This document shows positions 3,505 to 30,223 of a DNA stretch of 35,531 bases, one piece after another. Position numbers and translations under genes: made by a program. The stretch lies in IMG/VR virus record IMGVR_UViG_3300032265_002388, positions 1 through 35,531 of that record; one strand, given 5' to 3'. Under the pieces are notes generated by a model. That model made no database searches and was not told the DNA's origin. It saw only the letters and a program-made list of their open reading frames with translations. Position 1 is the stretch's first letter. Each line of letters starts with the position of its first letter. This stretch comes from a virus.

Positions 3505-4418
3505 TAGTTCTCGTTGTTGTATTCGGCAATGTCAATATTTGTAACCACCGAGCCAAAGTTGGGATTTTTCTTGCCGGCATTCTGACGAGTCCAGCTAGGA
3601 TTAAGTCCTGCTTGCTCCAACATGTCATCACGAATGTTTTGATTTTTCTTTTCTAAATTTAAAATTCTTGTAAACGAGTTAGTGATAGCAGCCGTATAAT
3701 ATGCAAAAGGATTTTGACTTTTTGACTCGTCAAACTGTAGGCCAATTTGACTTAGCTGTAACAGGGCCTGACCACGCATTTCTTCGTTGTAGGTATAGCC
3801 GCGCCAGTTTGAACGTGTAGCATAACGTTCACACAGTTTCATATACATAGTGGCCAAGGTACGGGTGGCCTGTCCATGATCCTTTGAGAATTCACCAGTT
3901 TCAAAATCGCCAATCCAGTGACTTTTGCCCACTTGATATGGTTGTTTGTTTTCGTCTAGACGATAGTGATAAAAAGGAGGAAAGTTTAAACGTACATGTT
4001 TTTCGTCTAGCACCGGCACGTCGAGTAGTTCAGCCAGTGGATCATCCTCGGGTATGTCTAGCTCAAAAATATCTTCAATTTTTTTCTTTTTTGCCTGAGT
4101 TTTAGGTACCTTTTTAGGTGCCATAGGTATATGATCCCAGCAGGTAATACGGAATACTAAATCAGTATTTGCGATCTTTTTGGGATCAATAATCACTCCA
4201 GTCTCGCGTTTGATGCGATCAGCGCGATTGCGACGAGCTTCGGCAATGGTACGCTGATTGATTTTGGCCAAGGTGGGCAAAATGATATCATACTGATGAT
4301 CGTTTACAGGATCTAGGTAGCTACAGTAGGTATTTTTGCTTAGGTGTATTTGCTTCAAGATATCTCTATTGTTGAGATAATTGGTTTTTGCTGGTGTTCT
4401 TGTGGGTGTAGTTGACAC
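3504..4418 (-). CDS. 55: gp55-like late-transcription sigma factor
   Basis: The C-terminal half contains the gp55 hallmark: YTYNEEMRGQALLQL followed by FDESKSQNPFAYYTAAITNS, matching the T4 gp55 region around FDETKYKNPHAY. YLNNRDILKQ near the N-terminus matches YVNNKELLQA of T4 gp55. gp55 replaces the host sigma factor on RNA polymerase so that late promoters are read. I place the start at GTG 4418-4416 because TAGGAG (4432-4427) lies 8 nt upstream and a strong promoter begins transcription at about 4437; a GTG at 4505 would extend the frame by 29 residues but lies upstream of the promoter. From GTG 4418 the protein is 304 aa, well above the 185 of T4 gp55, owing to an insertion with a basic run (KKVPKTQAKKKK) and an acidic stretch (EDIFELDIPEDDPLAELL). 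Confidence 0.85.
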   Translation of the reverse strand: MSTTPTRTPAKTNYLNNRDILKQIHLSKNTYCSYLDPVNDHQYDIILPTLAKINQRTIAEARRNRADRIKRETGVIIDPKKIANTDLVFRITCWDHIPMAPKKVPKTQAKKKKIEDIFELDIPEDDPLAELLDVPVLDEKHVRLNFPPFYHYRLDENKQPYQVGKSHWIGDFETGEFSKDHGQATRTLATMYMKLCERYATRSNWRGYTYNEEMRGQALLQLSQIGLQFDESKSQNPFAYYTAAITNSFTRILNLEKKNQNIRDDMLEQAGLNPSWTRQNAGKKNPNFGSVVTNIDIAEYNNEN

Positions 4419-4443
4419 TCGTTGATCTCCTAATAGTATATTT

Positions 4444-4471
4444 ATTGTAGCATAAAAACCACAGTTGTCAA
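4444..4471 (-). promoter_or_regulatory. Strong sigma70-like promoter for gp55
   Basis: On the minus strand a consensus -35 TTGACA (4471-4466) and -10 TACAAT (4449-4444) are separated by 16 nt. An extended -10 TG (4452-4451) lies one base before the hexamer. The predicted start is at about 4437. The leader holds the TAGGAG ribosome-binding site (4432-4427) before GTG 4418. Host-type recognition suggests gp55 is made early or in the middle phase. Confidence 0.72.
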
Positions 4472-4505
4472 CCTTTAAATCATTATCTGGGTGGTTTATT
4501 TTCAC

Positions 4506-4515
4506 GGTAAATATA
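4506..4515 (+). promoter_or_regulatory. Candidate late promoter (GGTAAATATA) for the baseplate operon
   Basis: GGTAAATATA aligns with the T4 late promoter TATAAATA. It is followed by a short leader with AGGAAA (4520-4525) and the ATG at 4531. It faces away from the gp55 promoter in a compact divergent control region. Confidence 0.5.
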
Positions 4516-4530
4516 AGATAGGAAACAACG

Positions 4531-5676
4531 ATGGCAGAAGAAAATACAAGCGCAGTCCCTGTAGGTGACGAAGATCCTTATGCTGCTCAAGAGCAGGCGT
4601 TAGCCAACGACTTAGCTGGAGATGGCGTATCTGTTAAATCTATTGAAACTAAACCGCAACCTGTTGACCCTGCAGTAGCACAAGATTTAGAAAACGGACC
4701 AGGAACCAACGTTGCGGTCCCCACAGCCGATGTTAAGAAAAGTGCTGCGGATGTTGGCTCTCAAGATCCGGCCGCGGCATTTACAAATCCTGCATCAGCC
4801 GGAACCTTTACCAGTGCGGCATTTGGGCTTGGTACTGCCGGTGAGGCAGCAGCTCGAGCAATAGTAGGAGTAGGACAAGCCCAAAGCCAAGAAACCAACA
4901 TGAGCCTGTCACAGCAGTTGCCGGCCAACACCGACTGGCGTGTGACCTTGAGACTAGCCCCAGGAGCTACTTATTTGTACAAGGCTGCAAATGCTGGCCT
5001 ATTACAACCACTAAAAGTTACCAATGGAGTGATATTCCCGTATACTCCAACAATAACCACTGCCTACAAGGCCAAATACAGTGAATACGATCTTACTCAT
5101 TCAAACTACCGTGGCTACTTTTATCAAAACAGCTACACCGATGCTGTTACTATTAACGCAACATTTACAGCACAAAGTACTGCAGATGCAGCCTATGTGC
5201 TGGCAGTGATACATTTTTTCCGTTCAGTGACTAAAATGTTTTATGGCCAAGATGCCCAACGTGGAAGCCCGCCACCATTGGTATTTCTCAGTGGGCTAGG
5301 TGACTATCAATTTAACAATCATCCTTGCCTGGTCAGTCAATTCAATTATACCTTGCCGGCTGATGTGGACTACATTAGCTCTGGAACGCCTAATAATTTA
5401 GGATTAAATCTAGCACCCTTGCAAAATTTGTACTCTACAACACTCAATGCTGTAGCGCCCACAGTTACACGATTGGCCACAGCCTTTCTTCCACCAGGAG
5501 CACAAAATGCCATACCTGCACCCCTGCAAGGCCTGTTGAGCAATCCTACTTATGTGCCTAGCAAAATAGATATACAACTGACTCTATTACCAGTACAAAG
5601 TCGACAACAAGTCAGCACACAATTTAGTCTCAAAGGATTTGCAAACGGTCAATTACTCAAAGGAGGGTTCTGGTAA
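4531..5676 (+). CDS. Baseplate tail-tube cap/junction protein, gp48-like (tentative)
   Basis: A 381-residue structural protein. Residues 1-125 are rich in Ala, Pro, Gly and Gln and look disordered. The folded part begins near NTDWRVTLRLAPGATYLY and contains FPYTPTITTAYKAKYSEYDL, then YTDAVTINATFTAQSTADAA and HFFRSVTKMFYG. This pattern is familiar from tail-tube-junction/baseplate proteins of T4-like phages. It is the first gene of the baseplate operon, directly before gp53, which fits gp48 or gp54. The start has a good ribosome-binding site (AGGAAA, 7 nt spacing). The peptide VAQDLENG in the flexible tail recurs in the hub-like protein at 7127. Structural role is likely; the exact T4 equivalent is inference. 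Confidence 0.6.
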   Translation: MAEENTSAVPVGDEDPYAAQEQALANDLAGDGVSVKSIETKPQPVDPAVAQDLENGPGTNVAVPTADVKKSAADVGSQDPAAAFTNPASAGTFTSAAFGLGTAGEAAARAIVGVGQAQSQETNMSLSQQLPANTDWRVTLRLAPGATYLYKAANAGLLQPLKVTNGVIFPYTPTITTAYKAKYSEYDLTHSNYRGYFYQNSYTDAVTINATFTAQSTADAAYVLAVIHFFRSVTKMFYGQDAQRGSPPPLVFLSGLGDYQFNNHPCLVSQFNYTLPADVDYISSGTPNNLGLNLAPLQNLYSTTLNAVAPTVTRLATAFLPPGAQNAIPAPLQGLLSNPTYVPSKIDIQLTLLPVQSRQQVSTQFSLKGFANGQLLKGGFW

Positions 5677-12323: not shown

Positions 12324-15300
12324 ATGGCCACAACCTCAAGACAAACTGCGATATTTGGTGTTGAAGATTGGAAACGAATCTATCAAACCTACCGCGAAGC
12401 CGACTTTCAAAGCTACGATTTTGAAACCCTACGCAAGAGTTTTGTAGATTATTTGCGCCTTTACTATCCAGAAACATTCAACGATTATATTGAAAGCAGT
12501 GAGTTTATTGCCTTGTTGGACGTCATGGCGTTCATGGGTCAAAGTCTGGCATTCCGCACAGATTTAAACACCAGAGAGAACTACTTAGACACAGCAGAAC
12601 GCAGAGACAGTGTTGTTAGACTTGCAAATTTGGTCAGCTACACAGCCAAACGCAACACAGAAGCTTCAGGTTATCTCAAAGTGTTTAGTGTCAGTACCAC
12701 AGAAAATCTCACCGACTACAACGGCGTTAATCTGGCAAACCTTACAGTTAACTGGGCCGATCCCACCAACCTTGATTGGCAAGAACAATTTATTACAATT
12801 ATTAATGCCAGTCTAACCAACGCACAAAAATTTGGTAATCCGGGTAGCCGACAAACTATTCTAGGCGTGGACACACAGGAATATACTATTAATTTGGTGC
12901 CTGGTTTCTTGCCAGTGATTCCATACACTGCCACAGTAGACACAGTCAACATGCCGTTTGAAGTGGTCAATGCTACCTCTGCTGGTGCAAACTTTGTCTA
13001 CGAACCACCTCCATTACCTAACGGACAGTTCAATGTGCTGTTTCGCAATGATCAACAAGGGTTCCTTAGCAATAACACAGGATTTTTCTTCTTGTTCAAA
13101 CAAGGAGTCTTACAAAATCAAGATTTTAATTTGCCCGAGCGTATTGAAAATCGTGCCGTGGCCATCAATATTGAAGGCATCAATAATACCGATGTCTGGT
13201 TGTATCAACTAGACAATCTAGGTAATGTTGCAGGTTTCTGGGAGCAAGTCCAAAGTGTTTACGCAGCCGCAGTAGAACAACTAGCACCAGGTACTAGAGA
13301 TATCTACAGTGTGAGCAGTAGGACCAATGATCAAATTACTTTAAACTTTGGCGATGGCATATTCAGTACAATTCCAGTGGGTACTTTCCGCAACTATGTG
13401 CGAGCCAGCAATGGACTAACCTATATTATTAATCCTGTAGAGATGCAAAGCGTCACGGTACCTATCAGCTATGTAAGTCGCACAGGACAGATTGAAACCT
13501 TAACATTTACCTGCGGCATCACTGAACCAGTGACCAATGCACAGGCACGTGAGACCATCCAAGAGATCAAACAACGTGCTCCAGCTGGATATTACACACA
13601 AAATCGCATGGTCAACGGCGAAGACTATACAAATTTTCCGTTTACCCAATACAACAGCATACTCAAAAGCACAGCGATCAACCGTGCCAGCATTGGTACC
13701 AGTCGATATCTTGACCTGGTAGATGGCACTGGAAAATATTCCAGCACCAACATATTTGCCAGCGACGGTGCCTTGTATGAATCCAATAACCTGTATAGTT
13801 TTCAATTCAGCTGGCTGACCAGCAATGACATCAGCGATGCTGTGGTCAATCAAATTAATCCTTTGGCACTTAAGGCAGGCTTACAACAGTTTTACTATGC
13901 TAACTTTCCACGTCCTAATCTAGCGGTATTAAATTACACTTGGCATCAAAGCACATCGATAACCAACGAAACCACAGGCTATTTCCAAAATGAACTGGGC
14001 AATCCAGTGTCCATTGGTGCCTTTGCCAGCAACAGCGGCAAGTACATCACCCAAGGCAGCCTAGTTGAGTTTGCAGCACCTACCGGATATTATTTTACTG
14101 CTACCAATCATTTGGCAGTTGGCACGCCTACTCGGCCAGGTGAAAAGCTCACAATCTGGGCTAGCCCCACAGCGGTGTATCTAGCAGGAACAGCACAAGG
14201 TCTTGGCAATTTACCGTCAGGCATTGGTCCAGTGGTGTTAAACAATTATGTACCAACCGGCGCGATTCCGGTTCAAGTGATTCCGGTGTTTACCACAGAT
14301 ATCCCTACTAGTATACAACAAACTATAGCCGGACAAATTGCATTAAATCAAAACTTTGGTCTAGGCTACAATAACCTTACCGATACTTGGTATGTAATCA
14401 CTGCCAGCAATCTTGCGGTAGATGCAACGTGGAGCCAGGCCAACGCACAGAATACGTCAGGTGCAAATCTTGATGCCAGTTGGTTAATACAAGCCACCTA
14501 CAATGGCTCAACCTATACTGTGGTTTCGCGAAGTTTAGAATACTACTTTGGCAGCGTATTACAAACCAGATTTTTCTTTTATACCAGCGATCCGATCTAC
14601 GATAGCAGGACCGGTACAGTAATACGCGACTACATCAATGTGTTAAAGGTTAACAGTCGTCCTGACAATTCTACCCCAATGGGCTCAGACAATGTATTGA
14701 CTATTATTGATCAACCAGTGCTCAGTGATGGACTGGTAGACGACTTCCAAGTTGTGGTTAGTTTTGATAGAACTGGTGGAGACCTAGCACCGGTTAATCC
14801 AGATTTCTTTGACGAAATTGTAGCACCTGGAGTGGATGCTACTCAGAAATTAGTGTTCTTCCAAGCTACCGTAGACTTTGATAACCTACAACGTTATCTC
14901 TTAATCGAAGCAGGCATAGTCAACAGCGACTATGCAACCCTGGCAGATATACAAGCAGTGCAGACACAGTATGTGATCGGTCAGGTATTTTATGCCTACA
15001 ATCCTAACAACGCCGCTACTATTGATTATAGTGCTGGAACATTTTACATTCTAGGAGTAGACAGCCTAAACAATCCTACGTTGACTGTAACCTACGACTA
15101 TATAGCCCGTATAGGTCGTCAAGATTTGTACTTCCAGTATCGCCACAACAGTCCATTGACCAGCAGAATTGATCCAGGATCAACAAATATCATTGACGTA
15201 TATGTGGTCACAAATGCTTATTACACCGCCTATACCAATTGGTTACAAGATACCACCGGTACAGTAGTAGAACCAGAAACACCAACTATTAATGAATTAA

Positions 15301-15758
15301 ATACTGCTTACCAAGGTCTACAAAATTACAAAATGTTATCTGACAACATGATTCTTAACTCAGTAGATTTCCAACCGTTGTTTGGACAGAAAGCTGATCC
15401 TGCATTGAGAGCCACAATCAAAGTTATCCGAGCATCTGGTAGTACAGCCAGTATTAGTACCATTAAAAATTTAGTAGTATCTAATATGAATGCATATTTT
15501 AATCTTGACACTTGGAATTTTGGTGATACTTTCTACTTTAGTGAATTGGCTGCTTATATACATCAAAATATTGCCGACGTGGTCAGTAGTATAGTTTTGG
15601 TTCCGTTAGACCCACAAAAGAGTTTTGGAGACCTTTACGAAATTAGATCAGCCCCTAATCAAATTTTTGTTAATGGAGCCACAGTAAACGACATAGAGGT
15701 TATCACTGCCTTGACCAGTACCAACTTGCAGACTGCTCCTGGCAGTGGAGTAATTTAA
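12324..15758 (+). CDS. 6: gp6-like baseplate wedge protein
   Basis: A 1144-residue protein. Its first 150 residues are typical gp6: FETLRKSFVDYLRLYYPETF, EFIALLDVMAFMGQSLAFRT, DLNTRENYLDTAERRDSVVR and LVSYTAKR. The C-terminal 100 residues also fit (DTWNFGDTFYFSELAAYIHQ, NGATVNDIEVI). gp6 forms the dimeric ring that holds the six wedges around the hub and rearranges on contraction. It is nearly twice the length of T4 gp6 (660 aa); the extra length lies in the middle, with many beta-rich segments. The stop overlaps the ATG of the giant gene (TAATG), giving translational coupling. Confidence 0.9.
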   Translation: MATTSRQTAIFGVEDWKRIYQTYREADFQSYDFETLRKSFVDYLRLYYPETFNDYIESSEFIALLDVMAFMGQSLAFRTDLNTRENYLDTAERRDSVVRLANLVSYTAKRNTEASGYLKVFSVSTTENLTDYNGVNLANLTVNWADPTNLDWQEQFITIINASLTNAQKFGNPGSRQTILGVDTQEYTINLVPGFLPVIPYTATVDTVNMPFEVVNATSAGANFVYEPPPLPNGQFNVLFRNDQQGFLSNNTGFFFLFKQGVLQNQDFNLPERIENRAVAINIEGINNTDVWLYQLDNLGNVAGFWEQVQSVYAAAVEQLAPGTRDIYSVSSRTNDQITLNFGDGIFSTIPVGTFRNYVRASNGLTYIINPVEMQSVTVPISYVSRTGQIETLTFTCGITEPVTNAQARETIQEIKQRAPAGYYTQNRMVNGEDYTNFPFTQYNSILKSTAINRASIGTSRYLDLVDGTGKYSSTNIFASDGALYESNNLYSFQFSWLTSNDISDAVVNQINPLALKAGLQQFYYANFPRPNLAVLNYTWHQSTSITNETTGYFQNELGNPVSIGAFASNSGKYITQGSLVEFAAPTGYYFTATNHLAVGTPTRPGEKLTIWASPTAVYLAGTAQGLGNLPSGIGPVVLNNYVPTGAIPVQVIPVFTTDIPTSIQQTIAGQIALNQNFGLGYNNLTDTWYVITASNLAVDATWSQANAQNTSGANLDASWLIQATYNGSTYTVVSRSLEYYFGSVLQTRFFFYTSDPIYDSRTGTVIRDYINVLKVNSRPDNSTPMGSDNVLTIIDQPVLSDGLVDDFQVVVSFDRTGGDLAPVNPDFFDEIVAPGVDATQKLVFFQATVDFDNLQRYLLIEAGIVNSDYATLADIQAVQTQYVIGQVFYAYNPNNAATIDYSAGTFYILGVDSLNNPTLTVTYDYIARIGRQDLYFQYRHNSPLTSRIDPGSTNIIDVYVVTNAYYTAYTNWLQDTTGTVVEPETPTINELNTAYQGLQNYKMLSDNMILNSVDFQPLFGQKADPALRATIKVIRASGSTASISTIKNLVVSNMNAYFNLDTWNFGDTFYFSELAAYIHQNIADVVSSIVLVPLDPQKSFGDLYEIRSAPNQIFVNGATVNDIEVITALTSTNLQTAPGSGVI

Positions 15759-18700
15759 TGAAGCAAGTTCGCAGTGTAGAGTTCTTACCAGAAATATTTC
15801 AAACCCCGGTTAACAAACAATTTCTGTCGGCTACGTTGGATCAGCTGATCCAAAATCCAGCATACACACAAACACAAGGATTTATTGGCCGTAGAGTTGG
15901 GCCTGGAGTCAATGCCAACGACAAGTATGTTGTTGAACCTACAAAAACTCGCACAGATTACCAACTAGAACCTGGGGTAGTACAAGTTGACCCAGCAGAC
16001 AGTCACAAGGTTGTGGATGCAATAACTTATCCTGGTATCAATGATGCTCTACAATTACAAGGCGCATTTACCGATAACGCCGACAGACTTTACACCAGTG
16101 ACTATTATACCTGGGATCCATTTGTTGATTTTGACAAGTTTGTAAACTATGCACAATATTATTGGGTACCCGAAGGTCCACTCGCAGTGGATATATCGTC
16201 TACAACTATTCCGCTTACTGATAGTTTTACAGTTACTAGAGCCAATGGAGTATATACATTCTCAGGAATCACCGGGGATAATCCAGCGATCACTTTAGTG
16301 CGCGGTGGCAGTTATACTTTTAATGTGGCCCAGAATCAATCAGAAACTGTAAACTTTCGTGTAACCAATAACCATACTAGCAGCTGGAATATTGATTATT
16401 CACCCAACCCTACATTAACATTAACTCGTGGCAACACCTATGTGTTTAATCTGTCACAGTCATTTCCTTGGGCATTTTATTTTAAAACAGAACCTAGTCT
16501 GGGCACAACCAACGTGTATTCAGATGGAGTATTCAACAACGGTGCCGGTGCCGGCCTAATTACGTTTACAGTGCCACAGGATGCTCCTGATGTGTTGTAC
16601 TATTGCAATGACCTAGAAATCAATCTGCGTGGCCAGATTAATGTCATAGATGGCACGCCCGGCACTGGGCCAGGATTTTGGATTCAATCCGCCCCAGGAG
16701 TTGATGGGCGGGTTCCCACTACTCCTAACATCAGCAGTAGACATGTATTAGGAGTAATTAACAACGGCGAAGATTTAGGCACGGTTACATTCAATGTACC
16801 ATATGCTGATGCCCAGAATTTTTATTACGATATGCCTAGTATCGGTACGGTAGACTTGGTTACTAGTTTATCCTTTGATCAAATCGATGGCCAGTATATT
16901 TCAGATTTTTTTACCACATACCCTAACGGCATTGATGGAATAACAAATTTACAAAACAGAACATTGGTTTTTATAACCGAGGATGTATTGCCTACTCCTG
17001 CTAATCTATATAGTATATGGCGCATACAGTATTTGACCGATACAAATGGTGTTTACTTATCACTACAATTTGTTCAGTCAGTAGACCTAAACAATAAATT
17101 TACCATTGGGTTTGGTAATGAATATTCTAATACCAGTTGGTATTATAACAACGAATATTTTGTTGAAATCCCTCTGCTGACCGCCGACAAGAATGTTTTG
17201 TTTTATCAAGATGGCACTGACCCAGAAATAGTAGGACGATTTAACATAATCGATCTTGATATGTCGACTTCAATTGATGTTGACGCCATTATTGGATCAC
17301 CTACCTACACCAGCCCCAACGGAGTGACTCTCACCAATGGTATGAAAGTGGTATTCCGCGGCAATGTATATCCTACAACATATCAAAACAATGAATACTA
17401 TGTAGAAGGAGTAGGAACAGCTATACGATTATTATCTGTACTCGATTATGTTACGCCAGAAACCTACACCAACAGTGAAACAATTCCTTACGATACTACA
17501 CCGTACGATTCTAACAACTTTGATGGAAATTTAAATCAACCTACCGTTCCAGATTACTTGACCATTAATCGTGCCAGTCCTGATCTTAATGCTTGGACCC
17601 GTAGCAATCGCTGGTTCCATATTGATGTGATTACTGCCAGTGCTGAATACAATAATACAACGCCTGTGGTAAACAATTTGTTCCGTGCTCGTAGACCTAT
17701 CCTAGAATTCCGTGCCGGTACCCGTTTATTTGATTTTGGTACTCAAGGTCTAGCACCGGTAGATATTATTGATTTTGTTCAGACCGACGCCCTAAGCAAT
17801 GTCAATGGCTCAATAGGCTACAGTACCGATGGCTACACGTTAATCAACGGAAGTACTATTATTTTTGCCGCTGACACAGATCCAGAAGTTCGTAAAACAG
17901 TGTACCAAGTTCAATTTGTAACTCCTGATACCCAACCACCATTGATTCCAGAACCCATTATTGTTCTTATACCAATTACAACAGCATTGGTAGATCAAAC
18001 TGTGGTTGTACTTGACGGCATTACACAACAGGGATTGTCGTACTACTATGATGGCGTAGCGTGGATCAAAGCACAACAAAAAATTAGCGTAAACCAACCC
18101 CCGTTGTTTGACATCTATGACAGCAACGGAGTTAGTTTTGGCAATCGTGCTATCTACCCTAGTTCAAACTTTACAGGCAGTCCACTATTCAGTTATGCCA
18201 TAGGCAATGCTGCGCCTGATCTAATATTAGGTTTTCCATTGACCTATCTAAGTCTGACCAACATTGGTGACATCGTTTTTGATAATAATTTTTACAAAGA
18301 TTCTTTTAACTATACCATAAACAGCGCAGGACAAACAGTTCCACTTAGCACTGGCTTTGTACGAGAATACAGCACTAGAGTCACCTTTGAAAGAGAAATT
18401 GGCTGGCAGACAGCAGTAACTCCTAGCCTAATACGTCAACAATTCCAGTTTACCTATGATGGAGGTCCGCTGTTATTGGATGTGGCTGTCAATCCCAATA
18501 CCACTGTACCAGCTGTACAAATATATGCCAACGGCACCTTCCAGGAAGCCTATAACTATCAATACACAGTAGGCACCAACACAACTACAATTAACCTGTC
18601 GACCACCTATGTACCTGGAGATTTAATTGAAGTAACTGTGCCCAGCGATCAAGTCAGTGTGGCAGGATTCTATGAAGTTCCTATTAATTTAGAAAATAAT

Positions 18701-21700
18701 CCGCTAAATGGCAACAGCGAGCAATTTACCCTGGGCACCATACGCAATCATTATATTGGACTTGCAGAAAATCTTATAGCCTTACAGGGACCTGCCATCG
18801 GTTCAAACAACACTAGAGACCTTGGCAATATTGTTCCTTACGGTCTACAAATACTACAACAAAGTTCGCCATTGACGTTGACCGGTTACTTTATGAGAGA
18901 TGCCAACTATAATATTTTTGCGTCATTGGCCTACAATAGTACAGAATACATTAAATTTAAATCACAGTTGTTAAATGCTGTAACTACCTTTGGTATTGCA
19001 GAATATGGCAATTGGACCGTGGCTCAGTTACTAGATGCCAGTATTGCCCAAATAACCGCAGGCAGAACTAATCTAAATCCATTCTATTGGAGTGATATGT
19101 TGCCTACCGGCACAACGTTTACGTCAAATAGTTACACGGTCAATCCTATAACCACTAATAGATTTAACACGATACAGACCTATAACTTTACTGAATCAAA
19201 TTATCTGGGGTTGTGTGTCTACGTTAACGATGTTATGTTAACACGTAACTATCAATATGTAGTAAGCACCGAAGGCCCTACGTTGACCATCTTAGTACCT
19301 TTAGCAGTAGGTGACGTAGTTACTATCAATGAATATTCTGATACCGCCGGAAACTTTGTTCCTAACACCCCTACTAAACTAGGCCTGTATCCTAAATATG
19401 AGCCCAAAATTTTCTTAGACACAGATTATGTAAATCCTACCCCGGTGATCCAAGGACACGATGGATCAATCACTGTGGCCTTTGGTGACATACGAGATCA
19501 AGTATTATTGGAGTTTGAAAAACGAATTTTTAGTAATCTTAAAAATGATGACAATCCTCCTCCACTAGTTGCTGAAGATGTAATTCCAGGTTATTTCCGC
19601 AAGACAGATTATACACAAGCCGAGATCAATCAGATCTTAGGTGAAAATTTCTTGGCGTGGGTAGGGGCCAACAAATTAAACTATACTGAACAAACCTACA
19701 TAGCTGACAATGAGTTTACCTACAACTATAGTCAAGCTGGCAACAGACTCGACCAAGAACCATTGCTCGGAGCATGGCGCGGTATCTATCGTTATTTCTA
19801 CGATACACTAACACCCAATATCACACCATGGGAAATGTTAGGTTTAAGCGAACAGCCTGAATGGTGGGAAAATACTTATGGCCCAGCACCATACACCAGT
19901 GACAACTTGGTACTATGGGATGACCTGGCTGCTGGCTTGATCAAGGATCCTGTTGCACCTTATATAAACCCTAAGTATGTGCGATCAGGATTACTTGATG
20001 TAATTCCGGTTGATAGTCAAGGCGAGTTGTTGCCACCATTCTATAGTGTAATGGGTGCCTACAATCCACAAGGATTTATTAAGAGTTGGCAAGTAGGCGA
20101 TGGTGGTCCAGTTGAAGCTTCGTGGTGGATGAGCAGTAGCTATCCATTTGCTGTTATGCGTTTGTTAATTCTAACACGTCCAGCAGAATTTTTTAGCCTG
20201 TTTGCTGATCGCGATCGGTATCGTTATAGCCCAGAATTTGATCAATATCTTTACAATGGTCGTTATAGAATACAACCACAAAACATCGAAGTGTACGGCA
20301 ATGGTGTCAGCAAGGCCAGTTATATTGACTGGATTGTTGACTATAATCAGCAACTAGGTATCAATAGTACAGATGCTCTAACCACAGATTTAGCCAATCT
20401 AGATGTACGTTTGTGCTATCGTGCTGCATCGTTTATTGCGCAACAAAACTTGGCCATTTATTTGGAAAAAAGTAGCCCTAAAAGTCAAAACAGCAGTCTG
20501 CTGATTCCTCCTGAAAGTTACAATTTATTGTTGTACAAAAATCAGCCATTTAACAGAATAAACTACAGTGCTGTGATTGTAGAAGTAGTCGATGGCGGAT
20601 ACAGTGTATATGGATACAGCACCACCGATCCGTATTTTTCAATTTTAGAAAGTCAAGTTTCTGGACTTACACAAACCTTGACAGGTGGAAATATATCAGT
20701 AACAGTGCCTAAACAGTATACTGATCGAACAGTACAGATCCCCTATGGTTATACCTTTACTAACTTGACCAGTGTGGTTGATTTCTTGTTGAGCTACGGT
20801 CAATATCTAGTCGACCAAGGTCTTACATTTATCGCCCAGGAAAATGGCTATACCTTAAACTGGATACAAATGGCCCAAGAATTCCTATACTTTGCTAACC
20901 AAGGCTGGGCCACCGGAACCATTATCAACTTAAATCCGTCGGCTACGCAAGTCATATCATTTAAGGCCGGTGCAATAGTAGATTCTATTGTGACTTACAC
21001 TCCAGAAAATTTGTTGCTAGATCAAAATCGTCAGGCATTCAATGCTAGAAATTTGATCATCCAACGCGAAGGCAATACATTTACGTTAAATCCAGAACCT
21101 GGTGGCAACCAAACCATTAGTTATTTGCAGTTAAAATTTACTGATTATGAAGACATGGTGGTCTTAGATAATCGAACAATTTTTAACGACTTGATTTACA
21201 ATACTGTCACAGCTGAAAGACAGAATCGTCTTAAATTGATTGCGGCCACAAGTACCCAGTGGAACGGTACCTTAAATGCCCAGGGCTTTATATTAAATCA
21301 AAACAATGTGGTTGCCTGGAAGGCCAACACCAAATATACCAAAGGTGACATTGTCATTTACAAAAACAGTTATTGGCAGGCAGCTACAATTGTACAGCCT
21401 AAACTTAAATTTGAATATGCAGATTGGTACAAGAGCAACTATGACGCTATACAACAGGGACTATTACAGAACTTAGCCACCAAGGCTGATCAGTTGGCCA
21501 ACAGCTACGATACACAAACGGCCAATCTCAATAGAGACAATGACTTATTGGCCTATAACTTAATTGGATTTAAGCCAAGGCAGTACATGGTAGATTTGGA
21601 TTTAAGTGACACTAGTCAGATAAATTTATATCAACAATTTATCAAAACCAAAGGAACCATACGGGCCACAGATCTGTTTACACAGGTTAATTTTAACAAG

Positions 21701-24700
21701 TTATCTGCCCAATACAATATATACGAAAATTGGGGGATACTAGCCGGGACATATGGTGCTCAAGCCAATCGTAGTTGGTTTGAAATCGCTCTCAACGAAG
21801 CGGTGTTAACTGGTAATCCAAGCACAGTACAAATCGTCCAGCCAGGAACTGAAAGCCAAGCCGACCAGACTGTCTTGTTGAGTAATCTCTGGGCCGAGAG
21901 CTACGCAATACCTAACACCGATATACTACCTACTACCTATACCACTGATTCAGATACAGCGTTGCCAAGTGCAGGGTATGTCAATATCAATGACGTAGAT
22001 ATCACGGTATTCAATCTCAACAATCCTAGTAGCATTGCCGCTAATCTTAGCACTGTTGGCAACGGCACCACAATCTGGGTAGCGCAGGATAACAGTTATG
22101 ACTGGAACATTTATCAGTGTGCCCAAGTCACCGGTCGAGTAATACAACTAACCGATAATCTTAACGGCACCAGCCGCGCACAGTTCAGCACTACCGTTGA
22201 TCTTACAGTGGGTGATTTAATCATTATTCGCTATTTTAGCAACACTGTAGATGGCGTGTATCGCGTATTAAGCCGCCCAACAATTGACAGTGTGGTAATC
22301 CAGTATGCATTTACTAACTCTAATCAGACCACACTAACCGGCACAGGCATTGCATTTTACCTACAGACCATGCGTGTAAGTCAGGCCAGCGACGTTGGCA
22401 CATTACCCTATGTAAATCAACTCATACCAGGAGCCATGGCCTGGGTTGACAATGATGGATCAGGCCATTGGGAGGTACTGCAAAAAACTAATCCGTTTGC
22501 ACCAATTGACTTATTGAGTGCAAATGATGTACGGCCAAACGCATTGTTTGGTTACAGCTTGTCTCAAAGTGCAGATCACTATGCATTATTAGTTGGTAGT
22601 CCTGGAGATTATGAAGGGCTTGGATCGGTATATACTTTTAGACTAGGTAATGTTAATAATTATATAGACAACACTGAACTATATCTAACAGCAACCGATG
22701 CAAGTGGTTATGGTTGTAGTGTGGACTTTGGTGATCGTACCTGGGCTGTAGCCGGGGCAAACACTAGTAATTCTGGCGCTGGGTATGCCACAGTGCTTTA
22801 TTTGATTCCTGGATCAAATGATTATTTACAAACACAATTATTAGTAGCACCAGACGAAGACTTCGGCGCTATTGGATTTGGCACTGCGGTGCAAATGAGC
22901 GATAACGAGCGTTGGATGTATATTAGTGCCCCTGGCGGCAATCGAATATATGCATATGGCCGTGTTGATGTTCCTAACCAGTCAGTGTCTTACATTACCA
23001 ACGGAACCACCGCTACATTTGTTTACAATAACAATATCATAATTGATCCAACATATCCTGATCAATTGTTAGTAACTCTTAATAATAATCTACAAGTGTA
23101 TGGCATAGATTATACCATTAATGGTGTATTAGTTCAATTTTTAACTACGCCTGGACCTAATAATAAAATAGTTATAAGCCGCCGCACAACTGTACAGTTA
23201 GATTTTGAAACTTATTATGGAGTAACACAAAACAGCACCACAGGCTCGGGGTCTGAGGCCACATTTACAATAACCAATACTCGCGGTGATTACTCAGTTA
23301 GTTTAACTGCACCTGGTATTAATTATACAGTTGGCAATCAATTGACTATTAGTTATACACAAATTGATCCATTTGGAAGTGCGGCCAATAATATTACTGT
23401 TACAGTAACCGAAGTAACCGACGGTGGCATTACTGGGTTTACGTGGACTGGTAGTGGTGTTAACAATACTTCAGTATTTTCTCTAACAGATTATTTGTAT
23501 ACTGTAACTACATATGACTCATTTACTGTGGACGTCAACGGCGTACTGCAACGTCCCTACATCGACTATACGTTTAGTAGTGGCACACTTACATTTATTA
23601 CCGTTCCTGATCCAGGTGCTATTATTGCAGTACAGTCAGCTACAGTCGGAGCTTATTGGCAATATGTAAATACGCTTGACTCTAATTATTATCCCATCAA
23701 TGTTGATCCCAATGCCCAGCTTGGTCATAGTATTACTGTAGATAAGTTAGGTACTCAAATACTAGCAGGCGCACCGTATGATACTGCCATGGATGCCCAG
23801 GGCAACCCTATTGCCAATGCAGGTGCGGTGTATGCATTTGATCGCAGTGTAGTTGAATATATCATTACCGATGTTGCACAATTGACCTACGCTATTCCTG
23901 GAGCATATACCAATCCCGTAGCAGTGGTATTAAACAATCAATATCTAACCAATACGGTTCAATACATCAATGGTCAATTTACCGTAAGCGGAAGTAATAT
24001 TGTGTTGTCTGGCTCTGTGTCTTTGACTGTGGGTGACATTTTAAAAATTGAAACCAATCAGTTTCAATTTGTGCAAAAATTTACAGCCAATACTGTAATT
24101 GATGAATCAGAATTTGGGCATAGCATAGATATTTGTTCTAATAGCTGTAGCGTATATGTTGGCGCTCCACTTGATTCTTTTGCTAGTGGAGTTCCGCAAG
24201 CTGGCATGGTTCAACGCCAAGTGAACCAGTCAAGGGTCTATGGTATAACTACTAGCACTGTGGCAAATCCTGCATTAACCCCAGGCGACACTATTCGTAT
24301 CAATAATATAGAAGTCACAGTACCTGATAGTCCTAATAATACCGTAGCTGGACTGATATCAGCTATTAACTCATCTAAGATACCTAATGTTGTGGCAACC
24401 AACGCAACCGATGTTACATTAACCGGTGACGGAATAACAAAGATATTCAGTGTTGGCAACATTTATTCGTCTGCTAGCTATGTAAATAAAACGGTAGTCT
24501 ATATCAACAATGTGTTACAAACTCCTAACGTAGATTATACCTACAATACCACCACACGTCAGATTGCATTTGTATCAACTCCTGCCAAGGGTGCAACAAT
24601 ATTAGTAGTTGCTGGCCGAATGACTGTGAGTGTAATCAATCTTGCAGCCGCAGAAGAATTTAACAAACTTACTGTGTTACCAGGGGTCGTTGCGGATGAT

Positions 24701-27700
24701 AGTACTATTGGTTCAGCGTTTTATGATCTTGGCTTTACTACCTATGCGTATACACAAACTATTACGAGTCCGGTGCCCACAGAGTTTGCCCAGTTTGGTG
24801 CTGCGGTAAATGTAAATACCGGTGCCGTGAATTTAGTAGTAGGCGCACCAAATGGCAACGTCTACGAACCAACTACCTTTGACGCTGGCAAAACCTACTT
24901 TGATGAGCATAGTACTACGTTCTTTGGATATATTAAAAATTCTGGAGTAGTTTATACCTATGATTATTTGCCTAGTTCTGATAACAGTCTAGCCAATCCT
25001 GGAAAATTTGTTTTTGGACAACAGGTCTATGTAACCACGTTGGCTACTGGAGACCTATTTGGTACAGCAGTTAACTATAGAAATGGTAGATTGTTAGTAG
25101 GAGCACCCGGCAGTGATCTTGGCGACAGCAGTGTAAACTATGGCAGTGTATCCGTGTTAGATAATCCCAAAGATGCGGCAGTATGGCAAGTGCTTTATTC
25201 TCAACAACCAATGGTTGATGTAAACTTAATCAATTCAGTATATTCTTACGATAAACTGTTAAACAGCACACAGACTTACTTTGACTACATCGATCCATTA
25301 CAAGGTAAAATCTTGGGCGTGGCACGTAGAAATATTGATTATATTGGTGCCGTTGATCCAGCCAGTTACAACACTGGCACTGTACACAATATAGGCACTA
25401 GCTGGGGCCCTGCACACGAAGGAGAAATTTGGTGGGATACTAACTCAGTTAGATTTATTGATGCCAATCAAGACAATATAACTTACGCTAGCCGCAGATG
25501 GGGACAAGTATTCCCAGGCAGTACAATTGATATCTATCAGTGGACTGCTAGCTCTGTACCACCAGTTAATTATACCGGTATCGGTACACCACTTAGTACC
25601 ACTAGTTACACCGCACACTCATCTATAGATAATCAAGGTCTGTTAGTTACAACCTATTACTTCTGGGTCCGCGGAATCAATACTGTAGCCACCGCACACG
25701 GTAAAACTCTGAGTGCTACAGCTATTGCCAGTTATATTCTAAGTCCATCCAGCAGTGGCTTGCCCTACATAGCAGCACTGACGGCCAATGCCATTGCTAT
25801 CTACAATGCCGATACGTTATTGTCAGCATTTGATACTATATTACACGTGGAATATGACCGGCAGGCTCAAGGCGGCACCAACGACATACACACAGAATAT
25901 GATTTTATTGCCGACGGAAAAGCTGATGCATTTTTAAACGCAAATTTATATCGTAAGTTTGTAGATAGTTTCTGCGGGGTAACTGCTTCGGGTGCTGCCG
26001 TACCAGATCCTTTGTTAAGTCCTGGCATGCAGTATGGCGTACAGTTCCGGCCACGCCAAAGTATGTTTGCTAATCGCTTTAAGGCCTTGGAAAATTACCT
26101 AGGTTATGCCAATACTGTATTGGCACAATATCCTATAAGCGAAACCCGCAGTTTCCGTTTGTTAAACAGTAGTGAACCTACTCCGGCAGCCAACTCCGGT
26201 GCCTGGGACTACGAAGTAGCCACGCTTGAAATATTAGCCTACCAAGATCTTTATGTAGTACCTATTGGATATCTATATCTAGTGTTAAGTGATACTAGCC
26301 AGAACGGACGTTGGACCATATATGAAGTCGCCAATGGTACCTTGCCTGGACAACGTGTATTAAATTTGGTACGGGTACAGAACTATGATACCCCTTTATA
26401 TTGGAATTACATCAACTGGTACCTCCCAGGATACAACAACAGTATTCAACCCGTTGCTACAGTGGCTAACACAGCTGGGCTACAAACTTTAAGTTTGAGC
26501 TCTGCACCCGTTGGCAGCAGTGTCAAAGTCACTGCCAATGGCCGAGGTAAATTTGAAATTTATCTGCGCACTGATCTTGGGTTTGACCGCGTAGGTCTTG
26601 AGGACGGAACCATTGAATTTAGTTCGGTGCTATGGGATTATGCCGCAGGAGGATATGGATTTGATGCCGAAGTGTTCGACGCAAATTATTTTGACCAAGA
26701 GCCTGTGATTGAAACTCGTCAAATTATCAAGGCAATCAACGAAGACCTGTTTGTTGACGATCTGCTAGTTGAACGCAATCGTGCATTGATGTTAACATTT
26801 AAATTTATCTATAGTGAATTTACTAGTCCCAATTGGCTGATTAAGACCAGCTATATTGATGTAGATCATGTGATCCGTGGCCTGTTACCATACGAGCTAT
26901 ATCAACCAGACAATCAAACTTTTGTGTCAGATTATATTACTGAGGTCAAACCGTATCACGTACAGACGCTTGCATTTAATTTGATCTATGATGGTATTGA
27001 TCGTTATCCCGGTGCATTGACTGATTATGACGTGCCCGCTTATTGGAACACCACACTAGATGCTCCACAATTTACAAGCCCGGTATTAACACCTTATACA
27101 TATTCTAACAGTGTAGATCAATCATTTATCAGTGATGCCGCTCCTAATGCTCAAATTTGGTTAGAAAGACCCTGGAGCGATTGGTTTAATAATTATACAT
27201 TAAGCCTAGACATTGTCGATGTAAATGACACTACGACATCATACTACGATGTTCCAGTTATAACCATTGGAGCAGAATGGGAAGCTGCCACTGCGTACTC
27301 TGTTGGACAACAAATAGCATACCGCAGCAATCTGTATACCGTAACCGCGGCTGGAATCACAGGAACCTCTGCACCAACATTTACCTCTGGAAGTTCTGTT
27401 GACGGTACTGCAACTTTAGCTTACACAGGACCAAGAGCACAGGCCACAGCCATACTTAAAGCCAATGGCACTATAGCTACTATTACAGTGACAGTGGCCG
27501 GGTCAGGATATTTGACCACTCCACTGATAGCTATCAATGGCGTTTATCCTGATTTTACAACGTCCGCTATAAAATTAATTGCTGTGATGGGCAACAATTT
27601 AGTTAGAAGCATTAATACTACTATCAAGTACGATCGTTATCAATATGCCACTACCATTTATGAATGGCAAGCAGATGTGGTCTACACCCAAGGTGAGCAG

Positions 27701-28132
27701 GTACGCTGGCGCAACCGTGTTTGGTCGGCCAATGCCACACAATCGTCTTCTACTTTTGTTGTCGAAGACTGGACTCCAGTTAATGCTGATTCATTGAGTG
27801 GTGTAGATCGCACCATGGGATTCTACGTACCTACTGTAAACATGCCTGGACTTAGTTTGCCACTGTTAATCGACGGAGTTGATTATCCAGGCGTACAAGT
27901 TGATGCCCCCAATTTCAATCAAAACACTGGATTTGATATAGGCAACTATGATATTAATCCGTTTGATAATATATCCTACGATGCAGAAGGGCGCCCAACA
28001 TACGATCCAGCTATATTGGATGCTCGCTATTCCAGTGCCTATTTAGATCCATATCTTGGTACCAGAGCCACAGATATCAACGTAGATGGAGGTGCTTATG
28101 TTGGACCTTACAGTAGTCATGCACCCGAATAA
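15758..28132 (+). CDS. 7: Giant gp7-like baseplate wedge protein, upstream part (4124 aa, ends at an in-frame TAA)
   Basis: The N-terminus (FLPEIFQTPVNKQFLSATLD, FIGRRVGPG, then TWDPFVDFDKFVNYAQYYWV) matches the oversized gp7-type wedge proteins of T4-like aquatic phages. Approximate residue map: duplicated cupredoxin-like domain 150-300 (ITLVRGGSYTFNV, LTLTRGNTYVFNL); FRARRPILEF near 635; wedge core 1255-1400 (WRGIYRYFYDTLTP, PWEMLG, PEWWENTYGPAPYTSDN); CBM5/12-like WKANTKYTKGDIVIYKNSYW near 1853; seven FG-GAP-like repeats 2258-3140; TTYYFWVRG near 3300; VSDYITEVKPYHVQT near 3725; two more CBM-like motifs near 3840 and 3968. Small beta modules with a 'V-N-G-x-x-Q...DY' pattern recur throughout. 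T4 gp7 has 1032 residues. The frame stops at 28130-28132 but continues without shift; see the entries below. Confidence 0.82.
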   Translation: MKQVRSVEFLPEIFQTPVNKQFLSATLDQLIQNPAYTQTQGFIGRRVGPGVNANDKYVVEPTKTRTDYQLEPGVVQVDPADSHKVVDAITYPGINDALQLQGAFTDNADRLYTSDYYTWDPFVDFDKFVNYAQYYWVPEGPLAVDISSTTIPLTDSFTVTRANGVYTFSGITGDNPAITLVRGGSYTFNVAQNQSETVNFRVTNNHTSSWNIDYSPNPTLTLTRGNTYVFNLSQSFPWAFYFKTEPSLGTTNVYSDGVFNNGAGAGLITFTVPQDAPDVLYYCNDLEINLRGQINVIDGTPGTGPGFWIQSAPGVDGRVPTTPNISSRHVLGVINNGEDLGTVTFNVPYADAQNFYYDMPSIGTVDLVTSLSFDQIDGQYISDFFTTYPNGIDGITNLQNRTLVFITEDVLPTPANLYSIWRIQYLTDTNGVYLSLQFVQSVDLNNKFTIGFGNEYSNTSWYYNNEYFVEIPLLTADKNVLFYQDGTDPEIVGRFNIIDLDMSTSIDVDAIIGSPTYTSPNGVTLTNGMKVVFRGNVYPTTYQNNEYYVEGVGTAIRLLSVLDYVTPETYTNSETIPYDTTPYDSNNFDGNLNQPTVPDYLTINRASPDLNAWTRSNRWFHIDVITASAEYNNTTPVVNNLFRARRPILEFRAGTRLFDFGTQGLAPVDIIDFVQTDALSNVNGSIGYSTDGYTLINGSTIIFAADTDPEVRKTVYQVQFVTPDTQPPLIPEPIIVLIPITTALVDQTVVVLDGITQQGLSYYYDGVAWIKAQQKISVNQPPLFDIYDSNGVSFGNRAIYPSSNFTGSPLFSYAIGNAAPDLILGFPLTYLSLTNIGDIVFDNNFYKDSFNYTINSAGQTVPLSTGFVREYSTRVTFEREIGWQTAVTPSLIRQQFQFTYDGGPLLLDVAVNPNTTVPAVQIYANGTFQEAYNYQYTVGTNTTTINLSTTYVPGDLIEVTVPSDQVSVAGFYEVPINLENNPLNGNSEQFTLGTIRNHYIGLAENLIALQGPAIGSNNTRDLGNIVPYGLQILQQSSPLTLTGYFMRDANYNIFASLAYNSTEYIKFKSQLLNAVTTFGIAEYGNWTVAQLLDASIAQITAGRTNLNPFYWSDMLPTGTTFTSNSYTVNPITTNRFNTIQTYNFTESNYLGLCVYVNDVMLTRNYQYVVSTEGPTLTILVPLAVGDVVTINEYSDTAGNFVPNTPTKLGLYPKYEPKIFLDTDYVNPTPVIQGHDGSITVAFGDIRDQVLLEFEKRIFSNLKNDDNPPPLVAEDVIPGYFRKTDYTQAEINQILGENFLAWVGANKLNYTEQTYIADNEFTYNYSQAGNRLDQEPLLGAWRGIYRYFYDTLTPNITPWEMLGLSEQPEWWENTYGPAPYTSDNLVLWDDLAAGLIKDPVAPYINPKYVRSGLLDVIPVDSQGELLPPFYSVMGAYNPQGFIKSWQVGDGGPVEASWWMSSSYPFAVMRLLILTRPAEFFSLFADRDRYRYSPEFDQYLYNGRYRIQPQNIEVYGNGVSKASYIDWIVDYNQQLGINSTDALTTDLANLDVRLCYRAASFIAQQNLAIYLEKSSPKSQNSSLLIPPESYNLLLYKNQPFNRINYSAVIVEVVDGGYSVYGYSTTDPYFSILESQVSGLTQTLTGGNISVTVPKQYTDRTVQIPYGYTFTNLTSVVDFLLSYGQYLVDQGLTFIAQENGYTLNWIQMAQEFLYFANQGWATGTIINLNPSATQVISFKAGAIVDSIVTYTPENLLLDQNRQAFNARNLIIQREGNTFTLNPEPGGNQTISYLQLKFTDYEDMVVLDNRTIFNDLIYNTVTAERQNRLKLIAATSTQWNGTLNAQGFILNQNNVVAWKANTKYTKGDIVIYKNSYWQAATIVQPKLKFEYADWYKSNYDAIQQGLLQNLATKADQLANSYDTQTANLNRDNDLLAYNLIGFKPRQYMVDLDLSDTSQINLYQQFIKTKGTIRATDLFTQVNFNKLSAQYNIYENWGILAGTYGAQANRSWFEIALNEAVLTGNPSTVQIVQPGTESQADQTVLLSNLWAESYAIPNTDILPTTYTTDSDTALPSAGYVNINDVDITVFNLNNPSSIAANLSTVGNGTTIWVAQDNSYDWNIYQCAQVTGRVIQLTDNLNGTSRAQFSTTVDLTVGDLIIIRYFSNTVDGVYRVLSRPTIDSVVIQYAFTNSNQTTLTGTGIAFYLQTMRVSQASDVGTLPYVNQLIPGAMAWVDNDGSGHWEVLQKTNPFAPIDLLSANDVRPNALFGYSLSQSADHYALLVGSPGDYEGLGSVYTFRLGNVNNYIDNTELYLTATDASGYGCSVDFGDRTWAVAGANTSNSGAGYATVLYLIPGSNDYLQTQLLVAPDEDFGAIGFGTAVQMSDNERWMYISAPGGNRIYAYGRVDVPNQSVSYITNGTTATFVYNNNIIIDPTYPDQLLVTLNNNLQVYGIDYTINGVLVQFLTTPGPNNKIVISRRTTVQLDFETYYGVTQNSTTGSGSEATFTITNTRGDYSVSLTAPGINYTVGNQLTISYTQIDPFGSAANNITVTVTEVTDGGITGFTWTGSGVNNTSVFSLTDYLYTVTTYDSFTVDVNGVLQRPYIDYTFSSGTLTFITVPDPGAIIAVQSATVGAYWQYVNTLDSNYYPINVDPNAQLGHSITVDKLGTQILAGAPYDTAMDAQGNPIANAGAVYAFDRSVVEYIITDVAQLTYAIPGAYTNPVAVVLNNQYLTNTVQYINGQFTVSGSNIVLSGSVSLTVGDILKIETNQFQFVQKFTANTVIDESEFGHSIDICSNSCSVYVGAPLDSFASGVPQAGMVQRQVNQSRVYGITTSTVANPALTPGDTIRINNIEVTVPDSPNNTVAGLISAINSSKIPNVVATNATDVTLTGDGITKIFSVGNIYSSASYVNKTVVYINNVLQTPNVDYTYNTTTRQIAFVSTPAKGATILVVAGRMTVSVINLAAAEEFNKLTVLPGVVADDSTIGSAFYDLGFTTYAYTQTITSPVPTEFAQFGAAVNVNTGAVNLVVGAPNGNVYEPTTFDAGKTYFDEHSTTFFGYIKNSGVVYTYDYLPSSDNSLANPGKFVFGQQVYVTTLATGDLFGTAVNYRNGRLLVGAPGSDLGDSSVNYGSVSVLDNPKDAAVWQVLYSQQPMVDVNLINSVYSYDKLLNSTQTYFDYIDPLQGKILGVARRNIDYIGAVDPASYNTGTVHNIGTSWGPAHEGEIWWDTNSVRFIDANQDNITYASRRWGQVFPGSTIDIYQWTASSVPPVNYTGIGTPLSTTSYTAHSSIDNQGLLVTTYYFWVRGINTVATAHGKTLSATAIASYILSPSSSGLPYIAALTANAIAIYNADTLLSAFDTILHVEYDRQAQGGTNDIHTEYDFIADGKADAFLNANLYRKFVDSFCGVTASGAAVPDPLLSPGMQYGVQFRPRQSMFANRFKALENYLGYANTVLAQYPISETRSFRLLNSSEPTPAANSGAWDYEVATLEILAYQDLYVVPIGYLYLVLSDTSQNGRWTIYEVANGTLPGQRVLNLVRVQNYDTPLYWNYINWYLPGYNNSIQPVATVANTAGLQTLSLSSAPVGSSVKVTANGRGKFEIYLRTDLGFDRVGLEDGTIEFSSVLWDYAAGGYGFDAEVFDANYFDQEPVIETRQIIKAINEDLFVDDLLVERNRALMLTFKFIYSEFTSPNWLIKTSYIDVDHVIRGLLPYELYQPDNQTFVSDYITEVKPYHVQTLAFNLIYDGIDRYPGALTDYDVPAYWNTTLDAPQFTSPVLTPYTYSNSVDQSFISDAAPNAQIWLERPWSDWFNNYTLSLDIVDVNDTTTSYYDVPVITIGAEWEAATAYSVGQQIAYRSNLYTVTAAGITGTSAPTFTSGSSVDGTATLAYTGPRAQATAILKANGTIATITVTVAGSGYLTTPLIAINGVYPDFTTSAIKLIAVMGNNLVRSINTTIKYDRYQYATTIYEWQADVVYTQGEQVRWRNRVWSANATQSSSTFVVEDWTPVNADSLSGVDRTMGFYVPTVNMPGLSLPLLIDGVDYPGVQVDAPNFNQNTGFDIGNYDINPFDNISYDAEGRPTYDPAILDARYSSAYLDPYLGTRATDINVDGGAYVGPYSSHAPE
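16200..16655 (+). other. Duplicated cupredoxin-like domain inside the gp7-like protein
   Basis: Two successive modules read ITLVRGGSYTFNV...VNFRV and LTLTRGNTYVFNLS...FYFKTEP, then ITFTVPQDAPDVLYYC. This is the beta-sandwich pattern of cupredoxin-like domains. The usual copper ligands (Cys-x-x-His...Met) are not preserved after YYC, so metal binding is doubtful. Confidence 0.55.
22530..25180 (+). repeat. Seven FG-GAP-like repeats (beta-propeller candidate) in the gp7-like protein
   Basis: Seven segments share '(F/Y)G-x-(S/A)-(V/I/L)...(V/I)-G-(A/S)-P'. They are LFGYSLSQSADHYALLVGSP, SGYGCSV...WAVAGA, FGTAVQMSDNERWMYISAP, LGHSITVDKLGTQILAGAP, FGHSIDICSNSCSVYVGAP, FGAAVNVNTGAVNLVVGAP and FGTAVNYRNGRLLVGAP. 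The number fits one seven-bladed propeller, with beta modules inserted between blades 3 to 6. Confidence 0.65.
28130..28132 (+). other. In-frame TAA interrupting the giant gp7-like reading frame
   Basis: The frame reads SSHAPE-TAA-LIPGSEFDTLDLRVYT. The position after the stop is exactly in register with the 687-codon frame ending at 30223. From my recollection of homologous phage proteins, this junction reads PEELxPG...FDTLD, so a GAA codon is expected where TAA stands. No ribosome-binding site, late-promoter motif or ATG occurs at the junction. Confidence 0.75.
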
Positions 28133-30223
28133 CTAATTCCAGGCAGTGAATTTGATACATTGGATCTACGTGTATACACACGCCCAGGTGCAGATTGGTT
28201 ACGACGCGGCCACGGATTTCCTTCTGCTAGTATCAAATATACCATAAGTCTGTCTAATTTGACTTTGAGTTTTGCTGGGTTATTACCATACACAGCCTTG
28301 GTACTAGTAGCCAACCAGACTCAAAGTCTAGATCTTCATGAGGGTACAGACTACACAGTAGATTATGTTGCTCAGACAGTAACCGTAATACTTGGAGGTA
28401 ATGTACAAGTTGAAGACGTAATTATAATCACTGCATACGAAATTGGTGGCGGCAATCAACTTTACAAAAATATCTATAATGGTGCTGATATAGGTAATAC
28501 TATTACAGTGCCGGTGGCCTACTACACAGACACTGGCGCCGAACAAATACAAGAATTTGTAATCTTTGTAAACGGTGTTGTAACCACAGATTATACTTAC
28601 GCTGCAGATGGCGTACAAAATACAACCGTTACATTTGGAACAACCTATACAGACACAGATAGTATTACCGTGTACGTGTTGGCACCCACATTTGTTGAAG
28701 CTACCAATACAACCATTAACTACAGTTGGAGTGCACCGCAAACACAGCTAATCACTGCGGATGGAACTACACTGAATTTTATCCTTGACAATAGTTTGAT
28801 CTATGTTAATCCCGATAGCTTGATAGTTACAGTCAACGGCAATCGTGCTAGAACCGCGGCTGGAATACGTCATGTAGGTGATGGTAGCACTGCATATACT
28901 TTGCCTGACAGGTTAGGATTTAATCAGTCTATAATTGTAGACAACGAAGTAAATGTCTACATAGATGATATTCCACAAATACTATACGTAGATTTTGTAT
29001 TAGAACCCTACGATGGAACCCCAAGAGAAATAATCTTTATTACAGATCCGCCCGTTGGTTCTGAGATACTAATCTATGTAACAACCGATACACAATGTTA
29101 TGTTAGCGGTAATCAGTTGATATTTAATCCAACTGGTGGGCTTGTTCCAGTAGCTGGAGATATTATTGCAGTCACTACCTGGAATGACACCCGTCAGCAA
29201 AAAATACTAAGTCAGTGTTTTGTAGGTCCTGTCACCTCAGGCATTACCGCAGTAGAACCATACGACAGTACCGACTTTGATGTAGGCATCACTACCGGAG
29301 ACGCAGGCAGCTACGATTACAGTTCGGGCATTATTGTTACAAGAAACAATCTTGATTTAGGCACAGTAATAACTGACCCAGATCGTTTATGGGTATCATT
29401 GAACGGTCGTAGACTATTCAACAACATTGGGTTTACTGTGAGCGGAACTGAAGTGATCTTAACCTCGGGGATATTAAGTGCGTCGGATGTGGTTATGATC
29501 ACCCAGTTTACAAATTTTGTAGTTCCAGAAAGCATGGCATTCCGCATATTCCAAGACATGCGTGGAGTACAGGCCACTTACCGTATCACTCCAGAGACTA
29601 CCACTGCCACTACAGCCACAGTAGCAGTTAACGCCGATATAATCCATGTAGCCAATGCCGCAACATTACCAGAACCTAATTTTGATGTCAACGTTTGGGG
29701 AGTGGTAACTATTGATGCCGAACGCATCATGTATCGTTACCGAGACACTGATAACAACACCATCAGTGGCTTAATGCGCGGCACTGCTGGCACTGCGATT
29801 ACGGCACACGCCAATGGCTCTATAGTTTACAACATGGGTCGCGGTAATTTGTTGCCAACAGAATATCAAAATTACATAGTGTCTAACATAACTTATCCAT
29901 TGGTATCGGGTGTAAATCTTGGAGACGGCTCAACCACCGTCTTTACAGCTGACGCTATTAATTTATTATTAGAAGACAGTACCATTAGAGACGAAAGTTT
30001 GGAAATATATGTGGGTGGAACTAGAGTGACCACCGGATATACCGTTACCGCTAACGATCCAGCTGAAATTACCTTTGATGAAGCACCCCCAGATGGAGTA
30101 GAAGTAACTATGCTGGTACGCCGTGGAGTTACATGGTATGCACCGGGTACAAGTACCGCTAGTAATGGTAATCCTTTACAAGTTACTGAAACAGCGGCCG
30201 CAAGGTTTTTACGGGGCCTATAA
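28133..30223 (+). pseudogene. 7: C-terminal part of the gp7-like protein, separated by the in-frame TAA
   Basis: This open frame of 696 codons is in the same phase as the 4124-aa frame. The first possible start is TTG 28160, with only a weak AGGCAG 13 nt upstream, so independent initiation looks poor. The content continues the upstream protein: FDTLDLRVYTRPGADWLRRG at the beginning, then five or more beta modules of the same type (FVIFVNGVVTTDYTY; VNVYIDDIPQILYVDF; LWVSLNGRRLFNNIGF; LEIYVGGTRVTTGYTV). Then follow FQDMRGVQATYRI, VVTIDAERIMYRYRDTDNNT, SGLMRGTAGT and the terminal TAAARFLRGL, which I recognise as the normal end of gp7-type proteins. It may be the product of stop readthrough, of separate translation from TTG, or a lesion or sequencing error; the coding itself is not decayed. 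Confidence 0.65.

Follow-up and report, generated by a model that had tools for sequence, protein, structure and literature searches.

We found that the largest gene of a virus contig is interrupted by a single in-frame TAA at a position where the relatives invariably encode glutamate, and that the frame stays open for the whole of the downstream part. The window, i.e., the stretch of DNA analyzed, is the entire IMG/VR virus record IMGVR_UViG_3300032265_002388 (35,531 bases). The TAA is very probably an isolated single-base nonsense change without function, private to this contig, in an otherwise intact single gene of about 4,820 codons, whose product would be a giant structural protein associated with the baseplate of a T4-related jumbo-type phage. 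Either the metagenome consensus is in error here, or the assembler captured a nonsense allele that is rare, defective or very recent, with an error being somewhat the more probable of the two. The normal phage population would, we infer, produce one continuous polypeptide from this gene.

A TAA at an invariant glutamate position

An open reading frame of 4,124 aa that ends with TAA (15758 to 28132) shares its phase with a frame of 687 aa listed from a TTG (28160 to 30223), and nine sense codons lie between the TAA and the TTG. This arrangement had been pointed out in a first-pass annotation of the same DNA, and we confirmed it on the sequence. Past the TAA, 696 more codons follow in the same phase without any stop, and the junction of the giant gene is translated as ...SSHAPE*LIPGSEFDTLDLRVYTRPG. 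The features are collected in Table 1.

Table 1. Coordinates of the giant gene, its interruption, and the gene upstream of it
Feature	Position	Strand	Basis
Upstream gene for a baseplate wedge subunit (PHROG: T4 gp6-like family); places the giant gene at the gp7 position	12324..15758	+	PHROG match
Giant virion structural gene, first 4,124 codons, closed by an in-frame TAA	15758..28132	+	ORF; phrog_10938; single-frame full-length homologues of 4,458-5,014 codons
Motif with strong conservation, ...SSHAPE-(stop; E in relatives)-L(V/I)PG(S/A)EFDTLDxRVYT	28100..28190	+	Alignment
In-frame TAA; Glu codon in all relatives	28130..28132	+	Comparison with relatives
Last 696 codons of the giant gene, open and under purifying selection, with the conserved C-terminus ...ARFLRGL	28133..30223	+	Translation; selection tests
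TTG, listed start of the 687-aa ORF; plain Leu codon in FDTLD, no credible start	28160..28162	+	Codon comparison

Loci were gathered from viral contigs by searching with the two parts that flank the stop (67 and 13 loci). Seventy-nine loci, representing 54 distinct junction sequences with 31 to 87% identity, span the site; every one of them has GAA or GAG at the codon aligned to the TAA and a reading frame that is open before and after it. The first-pass annotation had expected glutamate at this position, with one gene interrupted and a single substitution sufficing to explain it; the alignment bears out the former and supports the latter. An alignment of 44 sequences has 24 invariant columns, one of which is this glutamate, within the motif ...SSHAPEEL(V/I)PG(S/A)EFDTLD...; when the whole gene was aligned, 37 of 37 relatives had E at the position. 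Conservation in the junction region is highest in the block DINPFDN...SSHAPEELVPG.EFDTLD (27950 to 28190), which AlphaFold2 nevertheless predicts with low confidence, as extended chain. The whole gene is present in seven records from which the nearest loci derive (with six different junction sequences, that of L003 being shared by L021), and in each it is one stop-free frame of 4,458 to 5,014 codons.

The same stop, which had been proposed as something to look for in related contigs, was carried by none of these loci, and a degenerate pattern scan of viral contigs returned zero stop codons within the HAPE-E-L(V/I)PG motif. The exact junction, with either allele, had no match in viral contigs, so that no further representative of this population was found. 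The nearest relatives (L002/L074, L003/L070, and L004/L081) are uncultured IMG/VR contigs that match about 12.9 kb of the gene at 80 to 82% DNA identity; they share the junction motif with the contig, but have the Glu codon and a single open frame. Because the nearest relatives are uncultured, a DNA-level search of annotated phages and a protein search with the C-terminal part gave no matches. We also failed to find relatives in a genome-contig search. Among the relatives, the part beyond the motif measures between about 266 and 857 codons, with internal modules apparently lost or gained and an ARFLRG-like C-terminal motif retained.

Age and origin of the stop

The 696 downstream codons gave Ka/Ks values of 0.085 to 0.15 against the four nearest relatives, compared with 0.03 to 0.09 upstream, and a higher value downstream than upstream was also seen between intact relatives. 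Changes private to the contig, given as nonsynonymous:synonymous counts, were 18:17 after the stop versus 46:76 before it, so that the excess of nonsynonymous change on the contig's own branch after the stop was not significant (P = 0.17); the intact relative L074 showed the same trend (43:26 versus 80:79). With selection retained downstream and no significant nonsynonymous excess, the downstream part was therefore translated until very recently or still is.

These results bear on the possibility that the nonsense allele is established in the lineage and yields a baseplate protein that is shortened to 4,124 aa yet functional, which we regard as very improbable. The variation in length of the C-terminal part after the site is compatible with it, as is the prediction, at low confidence, that the site lies in an extended chain and not in a globular domain, such that a cut there need not break the fold (AlphaFold2 on the junction region, pLDDT under 50 at model residues 112 to 177, with the site at residue 151). 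However, the downstream codons show no decay, and five relatives whose C-terminal part is short (L006, L027, L039, L040, and L041) retain the terminal motif ARF(L/F)RG or a near variant. These therefore look like internal deletions, not truncations, and give no evidence of a dispensable C-terminus.

An isolated nonsense change agrees with two of the options raised in the first-pass annotation, a sequencing or assembly error and a recent nonsense mutation. The contig is not error-rich: it deviates at only 1 of 674 otherwise invariant columns, and that by a conservative V-to-I change, and any consensus error here would therefore be an isolated one. Since 4.2% of all single-base changes in the giant gene (1,816/43,380) create a stop, a random stop substitution in this gene, the contig's largest, is unremarkable. 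In 2 of 55 relatives the gene is broken once in another way, by an in-frame TGA (L056) or a frameshift (L038), which amounts to about two events in 0.7 Mb of inspected gene and shows that gene-breaking events are sporadic in these assemblies.

The TGA (L056:12635-12637) is located 230 codons past the site; L058, which shares 90.8% DNA identity with L056, has an open frame there. After the TGA, the frame of L056 runs about 450 codons on to the normal C-terminus. The apparent frameshift in the giant gene of L038 (positions 4480 to 4540, frame 1 to frame 2) has homology persisting on both sides.

Readthrough, recoding, and a separate second gene

Programmed readthrough of the TAA, also raised in the first-pass annotation, would make the stop a lineage-specific leaky codon from which this phage obtains a short and a long form of its giant baseplate protein. 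If true, phage baseplates would be varied by a mechanism that is new; the evidence does not favor it, and we consider it very unlikely. The downstream frame is open and under selection, and the base after the TAA is C, both of which would suit readthrough. On the other hand, the stop is absent from every other viral contig scanned, the 100 nt downstream have no stronger a fold than shuffled sequences (z = 0.52), and synonymous codons near the site vary freely, with no nucleotide conservation beyond the demands of the protein. The C after the stop had been taken as a weak termination context, but the same TAA-C also terminates three ordinary genes of the contig (2347-3504, 5676-5978, and 11903-12277), and UAA is recognized by both bacterial release factors (PMC5009743). 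No tRNA genes were found in the 35,531-base contig or in 21 related loci. Viral programmed readthrough, e.g., that of retroviral gag-pol (PMC5009743), likewise involves an in-frame stop with an open frame behind it, but the stop of the contig is not conserved, and neither a stimulatory structure nor a suppressor tRNA was found. Readthrough in a phage baseplate gene was not described in the literature searched.

Wholesale stop-codon reassignment was considered separately and rejected: TAA is the normal terminator, closing 16 of the 19 other ORFs that have their stop inside the contig, there is no tRNA gene in the contig, and its downstream genes are intact where compared with relatives.

A natural split into two polypeptides, with translation restarting at TTG 28160, is hardly credible. 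The 687-codon ORF does begin at this TTG, although mechanically. None of the relatives is split at the site, and where the first-pass annotation had allowed for homologues with a separate start there, the frame was continuous in every spanning homologue. The TTG aligns with a freely varying leucine codon (CTA, CTG, CTT, TTA, or TTG; Met in L006). As noted in the first-pass annotation, the junction has no ATG, no ribosome-binding site or close Shine-Dalgarno-like sequence near the TTG, and no TAAATA motif, the last of which stands a short way before the genes at 4531, 11903, 12324, 31024, and 32324. Promoter matches at the junction were no better than the chance level, and no terminator was found there.

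The isolated nonsense change, preferred here over readthrough, serves mainly as a caution: when the largest gene of a metagenomic phage contig has a solitary in-frame stop, the site should be compared with relatives before recoding is invoked.

The giant gene and its relatives in known phages

Three successive 1,200-aa pieces of the giant protein matched phrog_10938 (virion structural protein) with E values of 9e-89, 3e-125, and 8e-48, and the gene lies directly behind the gp6-like baseplate wedge gene, the position that phrog_10938 genes also have in known phages. The first-pass annotation had called the gene gp7-like, which holds for its position directly after the wedge gene; neither the N-terminal piece, the junction profile, nor the C-terminal piece had a sequence match among solved structures in the PDB. 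The likeness to T4 gp7 would therefore be one of gene order only. With about 4,500 to 5,000 codons, the intact gene is a very long phage structural gene.

Elsewhere on the contig, two radical SAM domain genes on the minus strand (2-1285 and 2347-3504) stand on either side of an SbcD-like nuclease gene, and a late sigma factor gene (3504-4505) adjoins this group.

Known members of phrog_10938, from isolated jumbo phages, include gp355 of Pseudomonas phage PA5oct (3,857 aa), whose product is marked as detected by ESI-MS/MS, gp180 of Agrobacterium phage Atu_ph07 (4,449 aa), a 4,555-aa protein of Sinorhizobium phage Phosso, and gp236 of Pectobacterium phage CBB (3,340 aa). The giant protein of the contig shares roughly 20 to 38% identity with these over several long segments; the similarity fades before the junction, so that the comparison ends ahead of the motif at the stop. 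The contig differs from the four phages by its in-frame TAA. In all four, the giant gene also directly follows a gp6-like wedge gene, and it is one continuous gene.
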